A DNA stretch of 64,000 bases from Halomonas sp. (GTDB taxonomy: Bacteria; Pseudomonadota; Gammaproteobacteria; Pseudomonadales; Halomonadaceae), in contig NZ_DRFS01000006.1 of assembly GCF_011050415.1 (NCBI RefSeq), positions 181,539-245,538 on the forward strand, read 5' to 3'. Below, in pieces: positions 41,800-62,650 of the stretch; position 1 is the stretch's first letter; every line of letters begins with the position of its first letter. Made by a program: the position numbers and the translations under genes. The notes beneath the pieces are model-generated. The model saw only the letters and a list, made by a program, of their open reading frames with translations, had not been told where the DNA came from and did no database searches.

Positions 41800-42602
41800 T
41801 TATCGGCCTCCGGTTTAATTAATGTATAAAGTAGGTAACGGCCTAAACGCCAGTGAGGGTCTTGGCGGCAGTACTGCTTTTCCAAGGCAATCAGGGTTTC
41901 ATTTTCTAGCGGCGTGGTGGGCGGTTTGCGTAAGTAGTCTTGAAAAATCCGAATGCCCGCGACGGATGCTATTTGCAGGTCATTGGCTTTACTCCACTGC
42001 TCAATCTCAGCATGGGAGACAGGTGAAATCGGCGTTAATCGTTGACGCTTGCCCTTGCCGGCCAATCGATCACTCAGCGCCTTCTCAAGATTGCCTTTCA
42101 CTACATTAGAAAAGCGCAGCGCATCGCGGTTGAAAACCATCAAACTAAGCTGACCGCCTGGAGCCAATAAATGGCTCAATTTAGCCAGTGCCGCTTGCGG
42201 GTCACCTAACCACTCTAATACCGCATGGCAGGTAATTAACGGCCATGGCCCTGCCGCTTGTTGGCCAAGCGTTTGTAGCGGTGCTTGTAGGTAGGTAATC
42301 AATTCATGAGGTAATGCGGGGTCGTCCTGGTGCCACTGCTTCGCGTGGTTAAGCATATCTTCTGAGGGCTCAGCCATGGTCACCGCATGCCCACACTTGG
42401 CAAACCACGCCGCCTGCTGGCCTAAGCCACCGCCTATATCGAGTACGGGCTGCTCTTTTAACTGCAGCATTTGCGGCAACAAATAGTCGAGCATCGCCAA
42501 ACGCAGCTCACCGCGTGGCGCTTGATAGAGTGAACGGGAAAATTTATCAACCAGGCCATCAAAGTAACGGTCGCCAGCCTGAGTTAATTCATAATCTGCC
42601 AT
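41796..42602 (-). CDS. cmoM: tRNA 5-carboxymethoxyuridine methyltransferase
   Basis: This 268-residue SAM enzyme methylates cmo5U34 to the methyl ester. It matches E. coli CmoM (SmtA) in layout: FDGLVDKFSRSLYQAPRGEL, the SAM motif VLDIGGGLGQQAAWFA, HAVLEWLGDP and LEKQYCRQDPHWRLGRYLLY. The track ORF runs 44 residues into the amidase gene; the ATG at 42602 (MADYELTQAGDRYFDGL) is chosen by homology, though its ribosome-binding site is weak. It acts after CmoA and CmoB, encoded at 22.4-24.2 kb. Confidence 0.88.
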   Translation of the reverse strand: MADYELTQAGDRYFDGLVDKFSRSLYQAPRGELRLAMLDYLLPQMLQLKEQPVLDIGGGLGQQAAWFAKCGHAVTMAEPSEDMLNHAKQWHQDDPALPHELITYLQAPLQTLGQQAAGPWPLITCHAVLEWLGDPQAALAKLSHLLAPGGQLSLMVFNRDALRFSNVVKGNLEKALSDRLAGKGKRQRLTPISPVSHAEIEQWSKANDLQIASVAGIRIFQDYLRKPPTTPLENETLIALEKQYCRQDPHWRLGRYLLYTLIKPEADK

Positions 42603-42694
42603 TTCGCTTTTTTTCAATTCACGGCTTTTTGGTTCATCGTTGAGGGGCATGCATAAGACCAGGCGTCGAATCAGAGGCGCGTAGTCTACCCTGG

Positions 42695-44203
42695 TTAAGC
42701 ACGAAACGCCTGCCGAGGGAGGTGGCATTGCCACTCCTCATGCTGCTCTAAAGCCGCCGCCAACTGAAGCAGTTGCTTATCCTCTCCTAAGCGGCCGACG
42801 ATCTGCACGCCCACTGGCAACCCATTGGCCGCAATATGCATAGGCACCGACATTGCTGGCTGCCCGGTGAGATTGGCTAGCTGGGTGAACGGCGTGCGGC
42901 GTAGCGCATCTACCGCCAAGCGCTTAAGCATTCCCACCCTTAATGCCAAAGAGGGTACCCCTGGAATTGCCAGCATCCCCATTATCCTTTCTCGCGATTC
43001 GGAGGGGTAAAGTTCGCCAATTTGTGGTGCGCAATCCGCCGTCACCGGCATGACCAATACGTCATAGCGCTGATGAAAGCGGCTCATCTTTTCCGCCGCC
43101 ACATGCCAGTGCCGCTTGGCTAACTCGTAATCCAGCGCCGAAAGCTTAGCGCCCAATCGACCAATCGCACGGGTTGAAGGCTCAATATCGAGCTTGTGGA
43201 CAGGCACACCTGTTTGCTGACTGATCCAGGTTAGATCGGCAGCCAAGTGGCCCAAGTAAAGAGTGAGGTAACTATCGGCCAGCACTTCTCCTTCAACGGG
43301 TGGCTCACACCACTCCACCTCATGGCCCATCGCTGCTAATGCTGCCGCCGTTTTCTCAACCGCCAGTTTAACCTCAGGATTTATCGTCGTTCCCAGGCCT
43401 CGGCTTAGTGACTCGCCTAACGAGACGGCGATGCGCAAGGGCTTAAGCGGTGACGATAAAGCAGCCATATAGCCTGTTTCACGCGGCACGGGATAGGGCC
43501 CGGACGCCGCCATACCGTTAATCTGCTCAAGCAAGGCGGCACTATCGCGTACGCTGCGCGTCAATGCATGCTCAATCACCGCCCCCTGCCACACCTCACC
43601 ATGAGCAGGCGCAAGGGGCACACGTCCACGAGAGGGTTTAAAACCAAACAGACCACAATAGCTGGCAGGAATACGAATAGAACCGCCGCCATCCCCGGCC
43701 AGTGCCATGGGCACCATACCGCTGGCCACGGCTGTAGCGGCACCACCACTGGAGCCCCCAGGAGAGAAGCCCGACCGCCACGGGTTTTGTGGGTGTGGGA
43801 AAGCCTTTGGCTCGGTAATCCCCATCAACCCAAGCTCAGGAGTTGCTGTTTGCCCCAGGATGATCAAGCCGGCTGCACGTGTGCGCTGAATCAACAATGC
43901 ATCTTCCTGTGGGCACCAGTGGGCTAGCGATGCGCTACCGAAGGCCAAAGGCTCCTCCGCCATTCCCATTAGAAGATCTTTGCTCAGGGTGGGAACACCG
44001 GCAAAAATAGTATTCGTTGCTAGCCGCTGACTCTCTTGTCGGGCACGCTCAAAACGGGTTCTCACCACAGCCTTTAGTAGAGGATTATATTTCTCAATAG
44101 CCGTTATAGCCGCTTCAAGTACCTCTTCTCGACTTACTTCACGGCGCTGGATCAACTCAGCAAGGCCGGTGGCGTCGAACGCTTGATACTCATCGAGATG
44201 CAT
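42695..44203 (-). CDS. Amidase-signature enzyme
   Basis: This 502-residue amidase has the Lys of LSKDLLMG, the glycine-serine loop FSPGGSSGGAATAVASG and the nucleophile region GDGGGSIRIPASYCG. Sequence style is that of 6-aminohexanoate cyclic dimer hydrolase-like and related amidases, but these names rarely predict substrate. The ATG at 44203 has GAGGG upstream. It ends 92 bases before cmoM, and the promoter region faces an AT-rich gap. No substrate is proposed. Confidence 0.85.
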   Translation of the reverse strand: MHLDEYQAFDATGLAELIQRREVSREEVLEAAITAIEKYNPLLKAVVRTRFERARQESQRLATNTIFAGVPTLSKDLLMGMAEEPLAFGSASLAHWCPQEDALLIQRTRAAGLIILGQTATPELGLMGITEPKAFPHPQNPWRSGFSPGGSSGGAATAVASGMVPMALAGDGGGSIRIPASYCGLFGFKPSRGRVPLAPAHGEVWQGAVIEHALTRSVRDSAALLEQINGMAASGPYPVPRETGYMAALSSPLKPLRIAVSLGESLSRGLGTTINPEVKLAVEKTAAALAAMGHEVEWCEPPVEGEVLADSYLTLYLGHLAADLTWISQQTGVPVHKLDIEPSTRAIGRLGAKLSALDYELAKRHWHVAAEKMSRFHQRYDVLVMPVTADCAPQIGELYPSESRERIMGMLAIPGVPSLALRVGMLKRLAVDALRRTPFTQLANLTGQPAMSVPMHIAANGLPVGVQIVGRLGEDKQLLQLAAALEQHEEWQCHLPRQAFRA

Positions 44204-44501
44204 ATACGTCCCTCTGTTTTTTCCCTAGCCTAGCAGAGAGCCTGTGCGCCACCTGGGTTATTGCTCAGTCATACCCATAACCCGATATCGGCCGCAACGA
44301 AAGAGGCATTGCAAAAAACAATTTTGATTTGCAACCAATTGAAAAACCATCGCTAATTAATTGATTTATTTTTTCATTACTATCAATTCTTAACCACTCA
44401 GACTATCTTAAGCTGGAGATACGCAAACGTTAAAAACATATAGAAACATATAAATATAAAATTATTCAAAAAATTACACAAAATAACGTGGCGGAATAAA
44501 T
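44204..44501. other. AT-rich divergent gap between amidase and PilZ gene
   Basis: The 298 bases between the divergent amidase and PilZ genes hold no ORF or RNA gene that I can support. The right two-thirds are strikingly AT-rich, with repeated ACATATA units near 44437-44455 and two TTGCAA blocks near 44308-44332. The AT-rich stretch continues into the PilZ gene, unlike its neighbours, and probably carries promoters for both genes. Confidence 0.5.
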
Positions 44502-46235
44502 ATGATAAAAGATGCAACCGCTCAAAATACTACCAGCGTGATAATGAGGTCTTTATTCAATAAAGATAACACTATCACTATTTTTTCTAAGGAAGCTGCT
44601 CATTCCTTAGAAGCGACCGTTATTAAGATTGAACCTGATAATCGAAAAGTCACGTTAGAGATCAATTATTCGGGCCTTTCACTATCTCCTTATCTAAATA
44701 ACGACACGGTGTCGTTTGATATAGAGGCTTCAAGGCATGGGCATGACTCAGAAGAAATTTATAATATTGAGCATGTTCCTGCCCATATTATTAAAATAGA
44801 CAACTACACTTATCACCTTGATTGTATACTGCCTCACTCCATCTTCTCCTCAGATAACCGTGGCGCACTAAGAGTCCCCTTTATTCTTGGTATGAGCGCC
44901 CGATCGCACATCGAAGTTTTTTCCCACGAACTTAATATAGAAGGCAAATTACGTAATCTTTCAATAACGGGCTGCATGGTGGATATAAGTCTGGAAGATA
45001 GCGCTGCCCTCTCAATAAATCAGCTACTTCCAGGTATAACGCTGGAATTTCCAAACGGGGAAACGTTTAAATCCCAAGCGCAGATCCGTCATATGCGTCC
45101 TTTTGGCAACCATGGGCATGCTGCCGTTGGCATAGAGTTCATTAACATGGATGCCATTTCAACTGAAGCACTTTTCCATTACGTATCAGAAGCTGAATTC
45201 GAAGTCGCTTTACGCTCCGGCACACAAAATATTTCACGGGCGAGATCAAGACTATTTATAGCAGATGCTAAAGAGAAAAAAATCCAGCATCAAGAAGAGC
45301 TTAGCCAACTTGAAAATACGCAAAACACCCCTCTTTTACGAGGGGTGATAGAAATTGCACAACAGCTACAAATTATTTTCATGTTCATGAAAAACAAGGA
45401 GTTTGTCCCTTCGGAAATATTATATGAGTGTGTCGATAGCATACTGTACATGGTCAACCATGACCGCAAAGCCTTACAGTTTGCACTCACTTACTTACAT
45501 GATGAACCAGAGTGGGTACGCCACGCCATTCAAGTAGCCAGCCAGCTTGCGATGGTGCTAATCAGCCGCGATCCACATGCTTATAAAACACGCGAAGCAG
45601 TGGCAGGCGCACTACTACATACGATGGGTAAACCGTTACTGATTAGTGAGCAATTACCCTCACTGAAAATACATATGTCACCGTCGCAAGGAGAGCTGCT
45701 TAAGGAGCATGTATATGCTCTCAATAACAAGCTGACCAGCCTTAATTGGACACCCAGCCCAACATGCCGCGACATTATCCACAATGCTAACGAACGACTT
45801 GATGGTAGTGGCTACCCAGCAGGTAAGCGAGCAGAAGAATTATCAGAATTTGTTCGCTTAATTAGCGTTATTAAAATAATTAACAAGCTAACCCATGAGC
45901 GAAATGGACAACCACCACGGCAACCTTTAGATGCCTATCGATGGGTAAATCAACGTCCTGGACTCTACGAAAAATCCTTGCTTGTGGAATATATTCAACA
46001 CTTTGGTCTCTACCCAATAGGCAGTTTGGCTAAATTTTCAAATGGTTTTCTAGCATGGATTATGGATGTCGATGCGAAGGGAATGCCCTGCAAAGTAGAT
46101 GTTGTTAAGAACTTAGCCTTTAGAGACACCTCTATTGATACGATATTATTTAGAAACGACTTTAACCAAATTGGTCGATTAGAAGGGACTGTCAATCCTA
46201 CTGAATATCATGTGAGTATGAAAAAGCACAACTAA
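44502..46235 (+). CDS. YcgR-like/PilZ c-di-GMP receptor with degenerate HD-GYP domain
   Basis: This 577-residue protein begins with a YcgR-N-like beta domain (about 20-110). A PilZ domain follows (about 120-240) with both c-di-GMP motifs: RxxxR in DNRGALRVPF and NxSxxG in RNLSITGCMVD. The C-terminal part (about 280-500) has HD-GYP character with LDGSGYPAG, but the catalytic HD is HT in ALLHTMGKP and the HHE-type motif is NANE. The phosphodiesterase is therefore probably dead and the domain a sensor or interaction part. The gene is much more AT-rich than its neighbours. It likely binds c-di-GMP and controls motility or surface traits; the target is not evident. Confidence 0.82.
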   Translation: MIKDATAQNTTSVIMRSLFNKDNTITIFSKEAAHSLEATVIKIEPDNRKVTLEINYSGLSLSPYLNNDTVSFDIEASRHGHDSEEIYNIEHVPAHIIKIDNYTYHLDCILPHSIFSSDNRGALRVPFILGMSARSHIEVFSHELNIEGKLRNLSITGCMVDISLEDSAALSINQLLPGITLEFPNGETFKSQAQIRHMRPFGNHGHAAVGIEFINMDAISTEALFHYVSEAEFEVALRSGTQNISRARSRLFIADAKEKKIQHQEELSQLENTQNTPLLRGVIEIAQQLQIIFMFMKNKEFVPSEILYECVDSILYMVNHDRKALQFALTYLHDEPEWVRHAIQVASQLAMVLISRDPHAYKTREAVAGALLHTMGKPLLISEQLPSLKIHMSPSQGELLKEHVYALNNKLTSLNWTPSPTCRDIIHNANERLDGSGYPAGKRAEELSEFVRLISVIKIINKLTHERNGQPPRQPLDAYRWVNQRPGLYEKSLLVEYIQHFGLYPIGSLAKFSNGFLAWIMDVDAKGMPCKVDVVKNLAFRDTSIDTILFRNDFNQIGRLEGTVNPTEYHVSMKKHN

Positions 46236-46320
46236 ACTTCACTCAAAATCATTGCGATTGAATGTTCAACTGTCCAAAATTGGCCAGATACCATTATGTA
46301 AAGCAGGCCCTTTCGTACCC

Positions 46321-47325
46321 ATGCGTCGCTCCACCATCCTTGAAGTTGCTCACCTTGCAAGTGTTTCTAAAACTAGCGTCTCTCGCTATTTTGGCGATGA
46401 ACGGGCCCGGCTGTCGCCTGCCCTTCAGGCACGCATCGCCCAAGCCGCTCACACGCTTGGCTACCAACCCAACCAAATGGCGCGTGGCTTAAAAGGTGGG
46501 CGCTCGAAACTTGTGGGCATGCTGGTAGCCGATATCCGCAATCCATTTTCAGTCGCCATTACTCACGGGGTGGAGCAAGCCTGCCGGCAGTATGGCTACT
46601 CATTATTGATAGGTAATACTGACAACGATCCTGAACAGGAGCGCCAGCATTTAGCGGTTCTAGGTGCCTATCAAGTGGAAGGTTTAGTGATTAATGCGGC
46701 GGGTAGCCCAGAGCGCCAGCTTCACACCTTTATCCATCAGGGAACACCGATTGTACTGCTAGACCGTGAGGTCAACCATGTGGATGCTGCTGTGGTCGGC
46801 CTGGATAATCATCAAGCGGTTGATATGGCGCTTGATCACTTAGCTGAACAGGGCTACCAAGCCGTCCTCTATGCCAGCGAAACACCTGAACAATCAAGCA
46901 CGCGCCAACTACGGTTAGCGTACTTTAATCAGAGTGCCAAACAACGGGCGCTAAGCCACTCAACGTTACTGCTTACCCCGTCAGACGACACTGCAACGCT
47001 TAAAGCATTGGATCACTTTATCGCCGACCACAAGCACCTCCCTTGCGCCGTTCTATGTGGCAACGGCAATGCAACGCTCTCAGTAACGCGCCTTTTTCAG
47101 CAGCTTGGCTTGTCGCTTGGCAAGGTTGGCCTTATGGGGATTGATGAGCTCGACTGGTGCAGCTTAGTGCTTCCTGGCATTACCACGCTTGCCCAACCCA
47201 CGGATGCCATTGGTCAAACGGCAATTCACTGCCTGATGCATCAAATTGCGCCTCATACGACACCTATGCCGACAGACCTGAGTTTTGCACCTACCTTGAT
47301 CAAACGAGGCTCCACTCACCAATAA
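46321..47325 (+). CDS. LacI-family transcriptional regulator, KdgR-like
   Basis: This 334-residue repressor has a LacI helix-turn-helix (STILEVAHLASVSKTSVSRY) and a sugar-binding domain (VGMLVADIRNPFSV). The track ORF starts 23 residues earlier; ATG 46321 gives MRRSTILEVA, the family start. It precedes kdgK and an 18-base operator-like palindrome at 47360, and one half of that site (AATGGTATC in reverse) occurs in its own upstream region at 46287-46295. It probably represses kdgK and associated genes and itself, responding to 2-keto-3-deoxygluconate or a related compound. The effector is inferred. Confidence 0.83.
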   Translation: MRRSTILEVAHLASVSKTSVSRYFGDERARLSPALQARIAQAAHTLGYQPNQMARGLKGGRSKLVGMLVADIRNPFSVAITHGVEQACRQYGYSLLIGNTDNDPEQERQHLAVLGAYQVEGLVINAAGSPERQLHTFIHQGTPIVLLDREVNHVDAAVVGLDNHQAVDMALDHLAEQGYQAVLYASETPEQSSTRQLRLAYFNQSAKQRALSHSTLLLTPSDDTATLKALDHFIADHKHLPCAVLCGNGNATLSVTRLFQQLGLSLGKVGLMGIDELDWCSLVLPGITTLAQPTDAIGQTAIHCLMHQIAPHTTPMPTDLSFAPTLIKRGSTHQ

Positions 47326-59901: not shown

Positions 59902-61320
59902 TTAACGCTCAAATAAGTAGCGCTGCACATTGTGGTAACACACCGCACGAACCAGCTCGCCGACGCGATCGATATCGTTGGGTAATTCACCGCGGGCCAT
60001 TTGGGCGCCTAGCATTTGGCAAAAAATACGTCGGAAGTAGTCGTGGCGGGAAAAAGAAAGCAGGCTACGCGAATCCGTCAGCATGCCCACAAAGTGACGC
60101 AACAGGCCAAACTGCATTTGGGTCGTCAGCTGGCGCTCCATACCATCCCGCTGATCGTTAAACCACCAAGCGGCGCCAAACTGCACCTTGCCGGGGATGC
60201 CATCGCCTTGAAAGGAGCCCGCCAGCCCAGCGAGCATTTCGTTATCCCGCGGGTTGAGGTTATAGAGCACCGTGCGTGGCAGTTGATGCTCGCTATCCAG
60301 CGCATCTAACAGCGCCGCCAAGGGTTCTGCGTAAGTGATATCGCCAATCGCATCGAAACCACTGTTAGCGCCTATTTCGCGCCGACCACGCTGGCTTAAA
60401 TCGCGCAGAGCGCCAATATGAAGCTGCATTACCCAGCCTCGCCGGGCGTACTCCTTGCCAAGCCATAGCAGTACGGCGGTGGTAAAGCCGTGGGCCTCGT
60501 CGTGGCTCAGCTCTTTTTCACGCATTCTGCTATCTAGTATCCGATCCAGCTCCTGGGCCGAAGGAGGCGCAACAAACACAGGCTTCTCCAGGCTATGGTC
60601 GGAGAGGCAGCAACCTAGGCTGGCGAAATGCTCAAGACGCTGGAACAGGGCCGCCAGCAAGTCATCGAAGCCCTTAATCGTGACGCCACTGGCGACTTCA
60701 AGCGTGGCAAGGTAGTCAACAAAAGTTGGCTGCTCTATTTTGAGCACCGTATCGGCCCGAAATGTCGGCAGCATAGTCGGCCCAGTGTTCGCCTGCGCAT
60801 GGCGTTGGTGGGTTTCCAAGCTGTCGACGGGGTCATCGGTGGTACAAATAGTACGCACGTTAAAGCGCTCCAAAATACCCTGGGCACTAAGCTGTGGGGT
60901 CGCTAATCGCTGTTGAGACAGGTGCCAAACTTCCTCAGCTGTCTGGGGTGAAAGCAGCAGATTGTCGATTCCCAACGGTTTTTTCAGCTCAAGATGCGTC
61001 CAGTGATAGAGCGGATTACCCAGGCAATCGGGTACTGTTTCCGCCCAGGCTTGAAAGCGCTCTCGGTCACTGACATCGCCGGTAATTCGCTGCTCGGCAA
61101 TGCCTGCACAGCGCATGGCGCGCCATTTATAGTGATCCCCTTTGAGCCATAGCTGGGTTAAATTATCGAACTGGGTATTATTAGCGATTTCAACCGGATC
61201 TAAGTGTGAGTGATAATCGCAAATCGGCATAATGGCCGCATGTTCATGGTAAAGCCGTCGGGCTGCTTCATTTTCTAACAGGAAATCTTTACCCATGAAC
61301 TCAATATTATCGTTAAACAT
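59902..61320 (-). CDS. uxaC: Glucuronate (uronate) isomerase
   Basis: This 472-residue amidohydrolase-fold isomerase converts D-glucuronate to D-fructuronate and D-galacturonate to D-tagaturonate. CDYHSHLDP is the N-terminal motif. WRAMRCAGIAEQRITG and FNVRTICTTDDPVDSL are family marks. AGGAG lies eight bases before the ATG. It is the first catabolic gene after the TRAP transporter. With uxuB and uxuA/manD it gives a complete path from glucuronate to 2-keto-3-deoxygluconate; a galacturonate branch (uxaA/uxaB) is not seen. Confidence 0.94.
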   Translation of the reverse strand: MFNDNIEFMGKDFLLENEAARRLYHEHAAIMPICDYHSHLDPVEIANNTQFDNLTQLWLKGDHYKWRAMRCAGIAEQRITGDVSDRERFQAWAETVPDCLGNPLYHWTHLELKKPLGIDNLLLSPQTAEEVWHLSQQRLATPQLSAQGILERFNVRTICTTDDPVDSLETHQRHAQANTGPTMLPTFRADTVLKIEQPTFVDYLATLEVASGVTIKGFDDLLAALFQRLEHFASLGCCLSDHSLEKPVFVAPPSAQELDRILDSRMREKELSHDEAHGFTTAVLLWLGKEYARRGWVMQLHIGALRDLSQRGRREIGANSGFDAIGDITYAEPLAALLDALDSEHQLPRTVLYNLNPRDNEMLAGLAGSFQGDGIPGKVQFGAAWWFNDQRDGMERQLTTQMQFGLLRHFVGMLTDSRSLLSFSRHDYFRRIFCQMLGAQMARGELPNDIDRVGELVRAVCYHNVQRYLFER

Positions 61321-61360
61321 TATTGTTTCTCCTTTTATTATGTGAGTGTCACAGGTCGTT

Positions 61361-62650
61361 TTAACCCAGCAGTAAATTAGGCAAAAAAAGCACTACACTG
61401 GGGAAAAATATAATACCCAGCACTACCGCAAATACCGCTAAAGCAAAGGGCAATAGTTCACGACTATAATCATAAAAAGAGCAACGTAAGATGCCACACA
61501 CCGTATACATTGAAATGCCTACTGGGGGTGTCATGCCACCAAAGGTAACCAGCGTCATCATTAGTAGCCCAAAATGCACGGGATCAACACCCGCTGCTTT
61601 AATAACAGGCACCAAAATAGGCGTTAACAACATTACAACGACCGTAGCTTCTAATAGCATGCCTAGAAAAATAAGTAGCACAGCCAAAGTAAGCAGCAAC
61701 GTTATTTGACTAGAGAATACGCCTAGCGTGAGCTCAGCTATTGTTTGTGGCACTCTTTCGAATGAAACGACATAGCCAATGATGCCGGAGAACATAATAA
61801 TCAGCATGATCATGCCAATATCTCTAACGCTGGCACGCATAGCGTTAAGGATTTCTTTAATCCCCATTTCCCGATGTATAACGCAGCCGATAAATAGTGC
61901 ATAAGCCACTGCAAACGCGCCCGCTTCTGAAGGCGTAAACAGGCCATAGCGAATACCTACTAATAACCATACCGGGAAAAGAATTGCCCAAATGCTACTA
62001 CGCAGGGCCTTTAAAACCTCGCTACCCGTGGGAAGGTTCTCCCTTACTGGAAGGTATCCCCGCCGCTTGGACACAATATACGTGGTCACCATGAGCGCCA
62101 CCATTAACAGGAACCCCGGCACAAGACCTGCAATAAACAAACGCCCGATGGAAACTTCACCCAGGTAGCCGTACAGGATCAAGCCAATACTAGGCGGTAT
62201 CGTCGCGGTGATTAACCCTCCTACAGAGAGCACAGCACCTGTAAAGCCAGGTGAATACCCACCTTTAATCATGCTTTTACCTAGCACACGAGATTGCATA
62301 GCGGCATCCGCCACGGCTGAACCTGACACACCGCCCATCAAGGTGCTCAATACGATACTTGCCTGGGCTAAACCACCGCTCATCCATCCCGCCAGTAAGG
62401 TAGAAAGATGAACCAAGCGTGGGGTAATACCACTGGCGTTCATCAGGTGGCCAATGAAAATAAATAGCGGGACAGCTAACAGGGGAAATGATTGTGTTGA
62501 TGAGACTATTCGCTGCACCGCGATGCTAGTAGGTAAAAAGGTATCCGGTAGTAAAAAGTAAGAAAAACCAGCAATACCAATGGCGAAAGCAACGGGCATG
62601 CCAATGGCCATGAGGAGTAAGCCGAAGCCCAGCAGTAAAACAGCTGTCAT
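61361..62650 (-). CDS. dctM: TRAP transporter large permease (DctM)
   Basis: This 429-residue membrane protein is the large TRAP subunit with about twelve hydrophobic helices. Marks include the GVSGSAVADAA loop, GGYSPGFTGAVLSVGGLI, IPPSIGLILYG and TPPVGISMYTVCG. It overlaps dctQ by ATGA at its start. It works with DctQ and DctP as a sodium-coupled importer. The operon context points to hexuronates or related sugar acids such as glucuronate as cargo. Confidence 0.93.
   Translation of the reverse strand: MTAVLLLGFGLLLMAIGMPVAFAIGIAGFSYFLLPDTFLPTSIAVQRIVSSTQSFPLLAVPLFIFIGHLMNASGITPRLVHLSTLLAGWMSGGLAQASIVLSTLMGGVSGSAVADAAMQSRVLGKSMIKGGYSPGFTGAVLSVGGLITATIPPSIGLILYGYLGEVSIGRLFIAGLVPGFLLMVALMVTTYIVSKRRGYLPVRENLPTGSEVLKALRSSIWAILFPVWLLVGIRYGLFTPSEAGAFAVAYALFIGCVIHREMGIKEILNAMRASVRDIGMIMLIIMFSGIIGYVVSFERVPQTIAELTLGVFSSQITLLLTLAVLLIFLGMLLEATVVVMLLTPILVPVIKAAGVDPVHFGLLMMTLVTFGGMTPPVGISMYTVCGILRCSFYDYSRELLPFALAVFAVVLGIIFFPSVVLFLPNLLLG

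Follow-up and report, generated by a model that had tools for sequence, protein, structure and literature searches.

A putative c-di-GMP receptor of Halomonas combining YcgR-N and PilZ domains with a degenerate HD-GYP half

Introduction

Binding of c-di-GMP is established for YcgR and PP4397, and c-di-GMP reception by degenerate GGDEF and EAL domains is likewise well known. Apart from DvhD in 2026, however, natural receptors of the pseudo-HD-GYP kind have, to our knowledge, hardly been described. DvhD of Desulfovibrio vulgaris (PDB 9rbz and 9rc0) is a natural HD-GYP protein in which HD is replaced by SQ and HH by MN, and which binds c-di-GMP without metal (Kd of approximately 99 nM), dimerizes upon binding and does not hydrolyze its ligand (Nat Commun 2026, PMC13090378). 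It is a membrane-located dCache-PAS protein of an adhesin system, whose c-di-GMP ligand residues are L577, K582, Y621, M646, R650, Y652, and E668 (PMC13090378).

The gene considered here is located at positions 44502 to 46235 on the plus strand of the window, i.e., the whole 64,000-nucleotide stretch of Halomonas DNA that was analyzed. As defined by its open reading frame, Pfam matches, orthologs, and dN/dS ratios, it encodes a 577-amino-acid (aa) protein composed of YcgR-N, PilZ, and pseudo-HD-GYP domains. Nothing relevant to PilZ/HD-GYP fusions in Halomonas was found in literature searches.

Results and Discussion

The N-terminal half resembles YcgR and PP4397

The query protein displays YcgR-N followed by PilZ, as judged by profile and fold matches (all features described below are on the plus strand). 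The YcgR-N-like domain (approximately residues 12 to 115; 44535 to 44846) was delineated by means of the family profile A2, built from 22 sequences, together with Foldseek and a weak, sub-threshold Pfam PilZN match (residues 13 to 72; E = 0.017). The PilZ domain (approximately residues 119 to 235; 44856 to 45206) was identified by a Pfam PilZ match above the cut-off (residues 131 to 228; E = 1.6e-7) and by a Foldseek fold match. Both c-di-GMP motifs of this domain are intact, RxxxR being represented by RGALR (R120 to R124; 44859 to 44873) and NxSxxG by NLSITG (N152 to G157; 44955 to 44972). Residues R120, R124, S154, and G157 are invariant in the 22-sequence family alignment, position 152 being occupied by Asn or Asp, and the conservation among orthologs of these motifs, as well as of the HD-GYP motifs described below, shows that they represent neither a chance occurrence nor a sequencing slip.

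The A2 profile matched PP4397 (PDB 2gjg) across both domains (positions 15 to 242; E = 6.2e-10) and YcgR with an E value of 0.004. The full-length AlphaFold model, which was generated from an 11-sequence alignment with a pLDDT of 53, is usable in its N-terminal half only, and this half matches PP4397 in complex with c-di-GMP (PDB 3kyf; E = 8.9e-10) and YcgR (PDB 5y6f; E = 1e-7) in Foldseek comparisons, the further top PDB matches of the model being MrkH, VCA0042, and MotI. Because its motifs are intact within a YcgR frame, the PilZ domain is likely to bind c-di-GMP.

The C-terminal half is a degenerate HD-GYP domain

A degenerate HD-GYP domain, spanning approximately residues 333 to 487 (45498 to 45962), is predicted from a Pfam HD_5 match above the cut-off (residues 345 to 486; E = 4.1e-9) and from matches of the A2 profile to the HD-GYP structures PmGH (PDB 4mcw; E = 9e-14), DvhD (PDB 9rbz; E = 2.1e-10), and V-cGAP3 (PDB 5z7c). 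According to translation and alignment, the HD dyad is replaced by HT (H373 and T374; 45618 to 45623) within the motif HTMGK, which ends at K377, while xHHExxDGxGYP is replaced by NANERLDGSGYP (45783 to 45818), comprising N428-A-N-E431 and DGSGYP at residues 434 to 439. The last metal-ligand Asp of canonical HD-GYP proteins (xxxDxxDA) is occupied by K458 (45873 to 45875). Four canonical metal-ligand positions have thus been lost, namely, the His pair (HH to AN), the HD Asp (T374), and the last Asp (K458), with the Glu and GYP kept and with H341, H373, and H403 remaining. Across the 22-sequence alignment, a core of H373, G376, K377, H403, N430, and E431 is kept, GYP being conserved in at least 90%. 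With the His pair and both Asp ligands gone, c-di-GMP hydrolysis by the known metal-dependent mechanism is very unlikely; it may be speculated that K458, situated in the old metal site, could replace the charge of the metal.

The HD-GYP core is followed by a C-terminal domain of about 90 residues (YPIGSLAKFSNGFLAW...; approximately residues 488 to 577; 45963 to 46232), which is homologous across the whole family and is shared with the stand-alone HD-GYP proteins of the order. An AlphaFold model of the HD half alone, likewise derived from an 11-sequence alignment, was of low confidence (pLDDT of 46) and returned no significant PDB match in Foldseek; with both models being poor, the assignment of an HD fold to this half rests on sequence homology.

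The original prediction had described a YcgR/PilZ c-di-GMP receptor with intact RxxxR and NxSxxG motifs, fused to a one-time phosphodiesterase now serving as a partner or sensor module, which keeps GYP and carries HT for HD and NANE for the His motif. The receptor assignment is borne out by matches to FlgZ/PP4397 and YcgR at the level of both profile and fold, and the motifs were read correctly in both halves, although the loss at K458, the C-terminal domain, and the membership in a large family with a flagellar-cluster copy had been missed. A receptor with a former phosphodiesterase as partner or sensor module remains the best reading.

Metal-site loss is graded across the family

The HH pair preceding the Glu of HHE was present in none of the 81 fusion rows versus all 17 stand-alone HD-GYPs, with one of the two His residues kept in two rows of the divergent f38 group. 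HD and the last Asp are kept in the copies located in flagellar clusters and in two intermediate clades, whereas the query clade and its sisters carry HT (rarely HN, HS, HV, or HA) and, in most cases, have Lys in place of the last Asp; L041 retains HD. In a phylogeny of the HD part, from which the motif columns had been removed and which was the product of a quick search with some long branches, the flagellar copies formed a single clade (support of 100) and the minimum number of changes was three for D374, two for H430, and two for D458, i.e., few.

One family member (L052:6813-8537), which adjoins a PAS-GGDEF-EAL gene, has lost its DGSGYP segment (NNNER followed by a gap) and keeps RxxxR and NxSxxG. 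YcgR-HD-GYP proteins of approximately 600 to 650 aa from other Halomonadaceae genera (L155 to L159 and L165) keep HD and the last Asp, carry NCE or NTE for HHE, and are found in a non-flagellar neighborhood in the stretches read.

The family is widespread in Halomonadaceae

A match to the query was obtained in 70 of the 82 genus genomes searched. A close ortholog (73 to 81% identity) is present in 16 of these 82, the window's genome included, while many hold sister copies at 50 to 55% identity and most hold a copy at about 26 to 30% identity to the query. When spread was judged from the best matches listed in the class (369 genomes) and phylum (399 genomes) samples, full-length fusions were seen only in Halomonadaceae, f44, f207, and f227, the last two being isolated families among the fusion carriers listed; the order sample adds the f38 group. 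Full-length relatives occur throughout Halomonadaceae, and the query is a member of a large, conserved, and expanded family rather than an anomaly that is in decay or was newly acquired.

Other genera of the same family (g3, g5, g22, and g24) possess a short YcgR of approximately 250 to 270 aa, as revealed by PilZN searches, whose neighborhood includes a CheW-like gene, probably encoding CheV, in three of the four cases read; these genera also carry a 610- to 647-aa YcgR-HD-GYP relative elsewhere. In genus g10, a 273-aa YcgR-type relative (L164:6214-7032) with a good family-profile score is without the HD half, possibly through secondary loss. A TMGK/NANE-type copy in f227, another family of the class (L201, genome G1066), suggests horizontal transfer.

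Genomic neighborhoods of flagellar and accessory copies

In the window's genome, this low-identity copy, a paralog 24 to 29% identical to the query, is embedded in the flagellar cluster, being preceded by fliL-K-J-I-H-G-F, fliE, and flaG and followed by fliS, fliT, and, further along, flhD, flhC, motA, motB, cheA, and cheW (gene names were assigned by reading the sequences). The flaG-fliS slot also holds a copy in five other genus genomes, and in three genomes of f44, a second family, the copy occupies the same neighborhood, one of these being viewed from the fliS-to-motB side only (flagellar-cluster loci: L042, L057 to L061, and L109 to L111). Only three PilZ proteins were found in the window's genome, in which PilZN (PF07317) was not detected, and the flagellar copy occupies the place where YcgR would be expected. 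This genome (G000) yielded 40 GGDEF matches and two HD_5 matches; as both of the latter belong to the degenerate family, the HD_5 search detected no canonical HD-GYP protein. The query locus itself has neither a flagellar nor a GGDEF/EAL gene neighbor in the stretch read, and any role of the query in motility would, therefore, be extrapolated from its paralog. Upstream of the query and of the flagellar copy, a scan for FliA-type promoters found no clear site (10 and 11 of 16 bases, respectively).

The accessory sister copies are frequently located close to genes of c-di-GMP turnover: a GGDEF and/or EAL gene lies within 500 bp at 20 of 34 such loci and within 3.2 kb at 26 of 34, and at three loci it is spaced by 9 to 27 bp on the same strand. 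Approximately 2% would be expected by chance on the basis of 40 GGDEF genes per genome, and the corresponding binomial value of 1e-25 is only indicative because the sister loci share ancestry. The neighboring genes encode varied architectures (GAF-PAS-GGDEF-EAL, phytochrome-GGDEF, Cache-PAS-GGDEF, and GAF-GGDEF-EAL), which suggests that the association with GGDEF/EAL genes arose repeatedly. No GGDEF/EAL neighbor was observed for the query clade, the flagellar copies, or the copies L053 to L055 in the stretches read.

Base composition, selection, and history of the locus

The query gene has a GC content of 0.417 versus 0.547 (z = -4.9 against the window ORFs) and a GC3 of 0.381 versus a mean of 0.578 (standard deviation, 0.062; 53 other window ORFs; z = -3.2), so that the base composition is indeed distinct from that of both sides, as had been predicted. 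All alleles of the ortholog clade are AT-rich (GC of 0.42 to 0.47, with flanks of 0.53 to 0.58), while most sister copies elsewhere are much nearer to the GC content of their host. The slot is identical in 10 of 10 related records, with methyltransferase or amidase genes on one side and a LacI-type regulator gene on the other. As this slot is kept in all ten records and all alleles are AT-rich, the low GC content is older than the window's genome and has long characterized the locus. A second AT-rich stretch is present in the window at 61001 to 62000 (GC of 0.445).

The gene is under purifying selection, its dN/dS of 0.081 to 0.095 being similar to that of the adjacent genes (four relatives with a converged estimate, at a dS of 1.2 to 1.4, which is near saturation). 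An amidase gene and the query gene appear to form a block exchanged by recombination (42594 to 46400, boundaries approximate), as indicated by the identity profile against V. neptunia (L006), the nearest relative as judged by neighboring genes. Identity to V. neptunia is mostly 86 to 95% up to 42593 and 83 to 91% from approximately 46.4 kb, whereas the query gene is 64 to 79% identical and the amidase gene is absent from V. neptunia. On the HD-part tree, the window allele groups with that of the H. ventosae type, which also carries the amidase gene. The identity drop, this grouping, and the shared amidase gene together point to an exchange of the block within the genus. Of the two causes originally offered for the unusual composition, relaxed selection is contradicted by the dN/dS values, and transfer holds only in part, in the form of allele exchange: the low GC content predates the genome, while the block of approximately 42.6 to 46.4 kb looks exchanged. 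An ortholog split by a frameshift in H. olivaria TYRC17 (L009) was set aside as a likely assembly or sequencing artifact, since the adjoining amidase gene is also split and other neighbors look shortened.

Proposed role and alternative explanations

We propose, as the probable explanation, that the query acts as a YcgR/FlgZ-type c-di-GMP effector with a pseudo-HD-GYP domain as its regulatory half, and that the flagellar copy is a brake. Judging by the intact motifs, c-di-GMP would bind to the PilZ domain and shift it against YcgR-N, as in YcgR. The pseudo-HD-GYP domain, its metal site being dismantled, would no longer hydrolyze c-di-GMP and would act as a regulatory module which dimerizes or holds a partner; it may also bind a cyclic dinucleotide without metal. 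The flagellar-cluster copy would represent the flagellar brake in these bacteria, with accessory copies such as the query being paralogs linked to other c-di-GMP circuits.

Other functions of the HD half may be considered. That it is purely a protein-protein platform, for dimerization or for docking of a cyclase or phosphodiesterase and with no nucleotide bound, is a tentative possibility to which the location of sister copies beside GGDEF/EAL genes of several architectures lends weight, as does the copy that lacks the GYP segment and still presents its PilZ motif; however, the near-invariance of NERLDGSGYP elsewhere exceeds the conservation anticipated for a pure scaffold. Somewhat more doubtful is a DvhD-type function of the HD half as second c-di-GMP receptor, which would endow the protein with two sites of different affinity and in which K458 and T374 would replace the metal site. 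DvhD binds c-di-GMP without metal (PMC13090378), has suffered a comparable loss of ligands, and is matched by the family profile (E = 2.1e-10). In the profile alignment, its ligands Y621 and R650 are clearly kept as Y438 and R467, similar residues (M392 and L463) occupy further ligand positions, and K377, H403, and E431 are invariant. The base-clamping Tyr and the Glu of DvhD are, however, not kept, the position of Y652 being Gly (G469) and the Glu position also differing, and the position of K582 is Gly (G397) in the query and Lys in the family consensus.

It appears improbable that the HD half has remained an enzyme whose metal site or substrate has changed: H341, H373, K377, and H403 remain and the flagellar copies retain HD and the last Asp, but in the query HHE is without both of its His residues, the Asp of HD as well as the last Asp are gone, and DvhD with comparable losses is inactive (PMC13090378). 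Still harder to sustain is the notion that the gene was acquired recently or is decaying, with selection on it relaxed. The deviating GC content (z = -4.9 versus window genes) and the block exchange relative to V. neptunia would fit such a history, yet dN/dS is on par with that of the neighbors, the slot is identical in ten records, and the entire orthologous clade has a GC content of 0.42 to 0.47, whereas most sister copies follow their hosts. Extending the proposed effector reading, one may imagine, albeit as an unlikely scenario, that in many Halomonadaceae the brake has been replaced by a two-site receptor (YcgR plus a metal-free, c-di-GMP-binding pseudo-HD-GYP) which was copied repeatedly beside cyclases and phosphodiesterases as a local effector, the window gene being a copy that now stands alone.

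Comparison with known systems

The story at the family level is of more interest than the single gene. A whole family with graded metal-site loss is evident, in which HD and the last Asp are present in flagellar copies and lost in accessory copies, and in which the pseudo-HD-GYP domain is fused to a PilZ receptor with intact motifs, one copy residing in the flagellar cluster. How an HD-GYP enzyme turned into a regulator, and what serves Halomonas as its flagellar brake, thereby become directly testable questions.

The query shares YcgR-N, PilZ, and both c-di-GMP motifs with the flagellar brake YcgR/FlgZ (PP4397), and the family resembles that system in having one paralog within the flagellar cluster, although the query gene itself lies outside it; unlike YcgR/FlgZ, the query carries a pseudo-HD-GYP half of 330 aa. 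Homology to PmGH and the stand-alone HD-GYP proteins of the order extends to K377, H403, GYP, and the C-terminal extension, whereas the query differs from these in possessing HT, AN for HH, Lys for the last Asp, and an N-terminal YcgR module. V-cGAP3 (5z7c) shares the HD-GYP profile match and is, unlike the query, a cGAMP phosphodiesterase without PilZ. DvhD likewise represents an HD-GYP protein without HD and HH, but its dCache/transmembrane/PAS architecture is missing from the query, in which no such Pfam match was found and which instead presents its degenerate HD-GYP domain fused to YcgR-N and PilZ.
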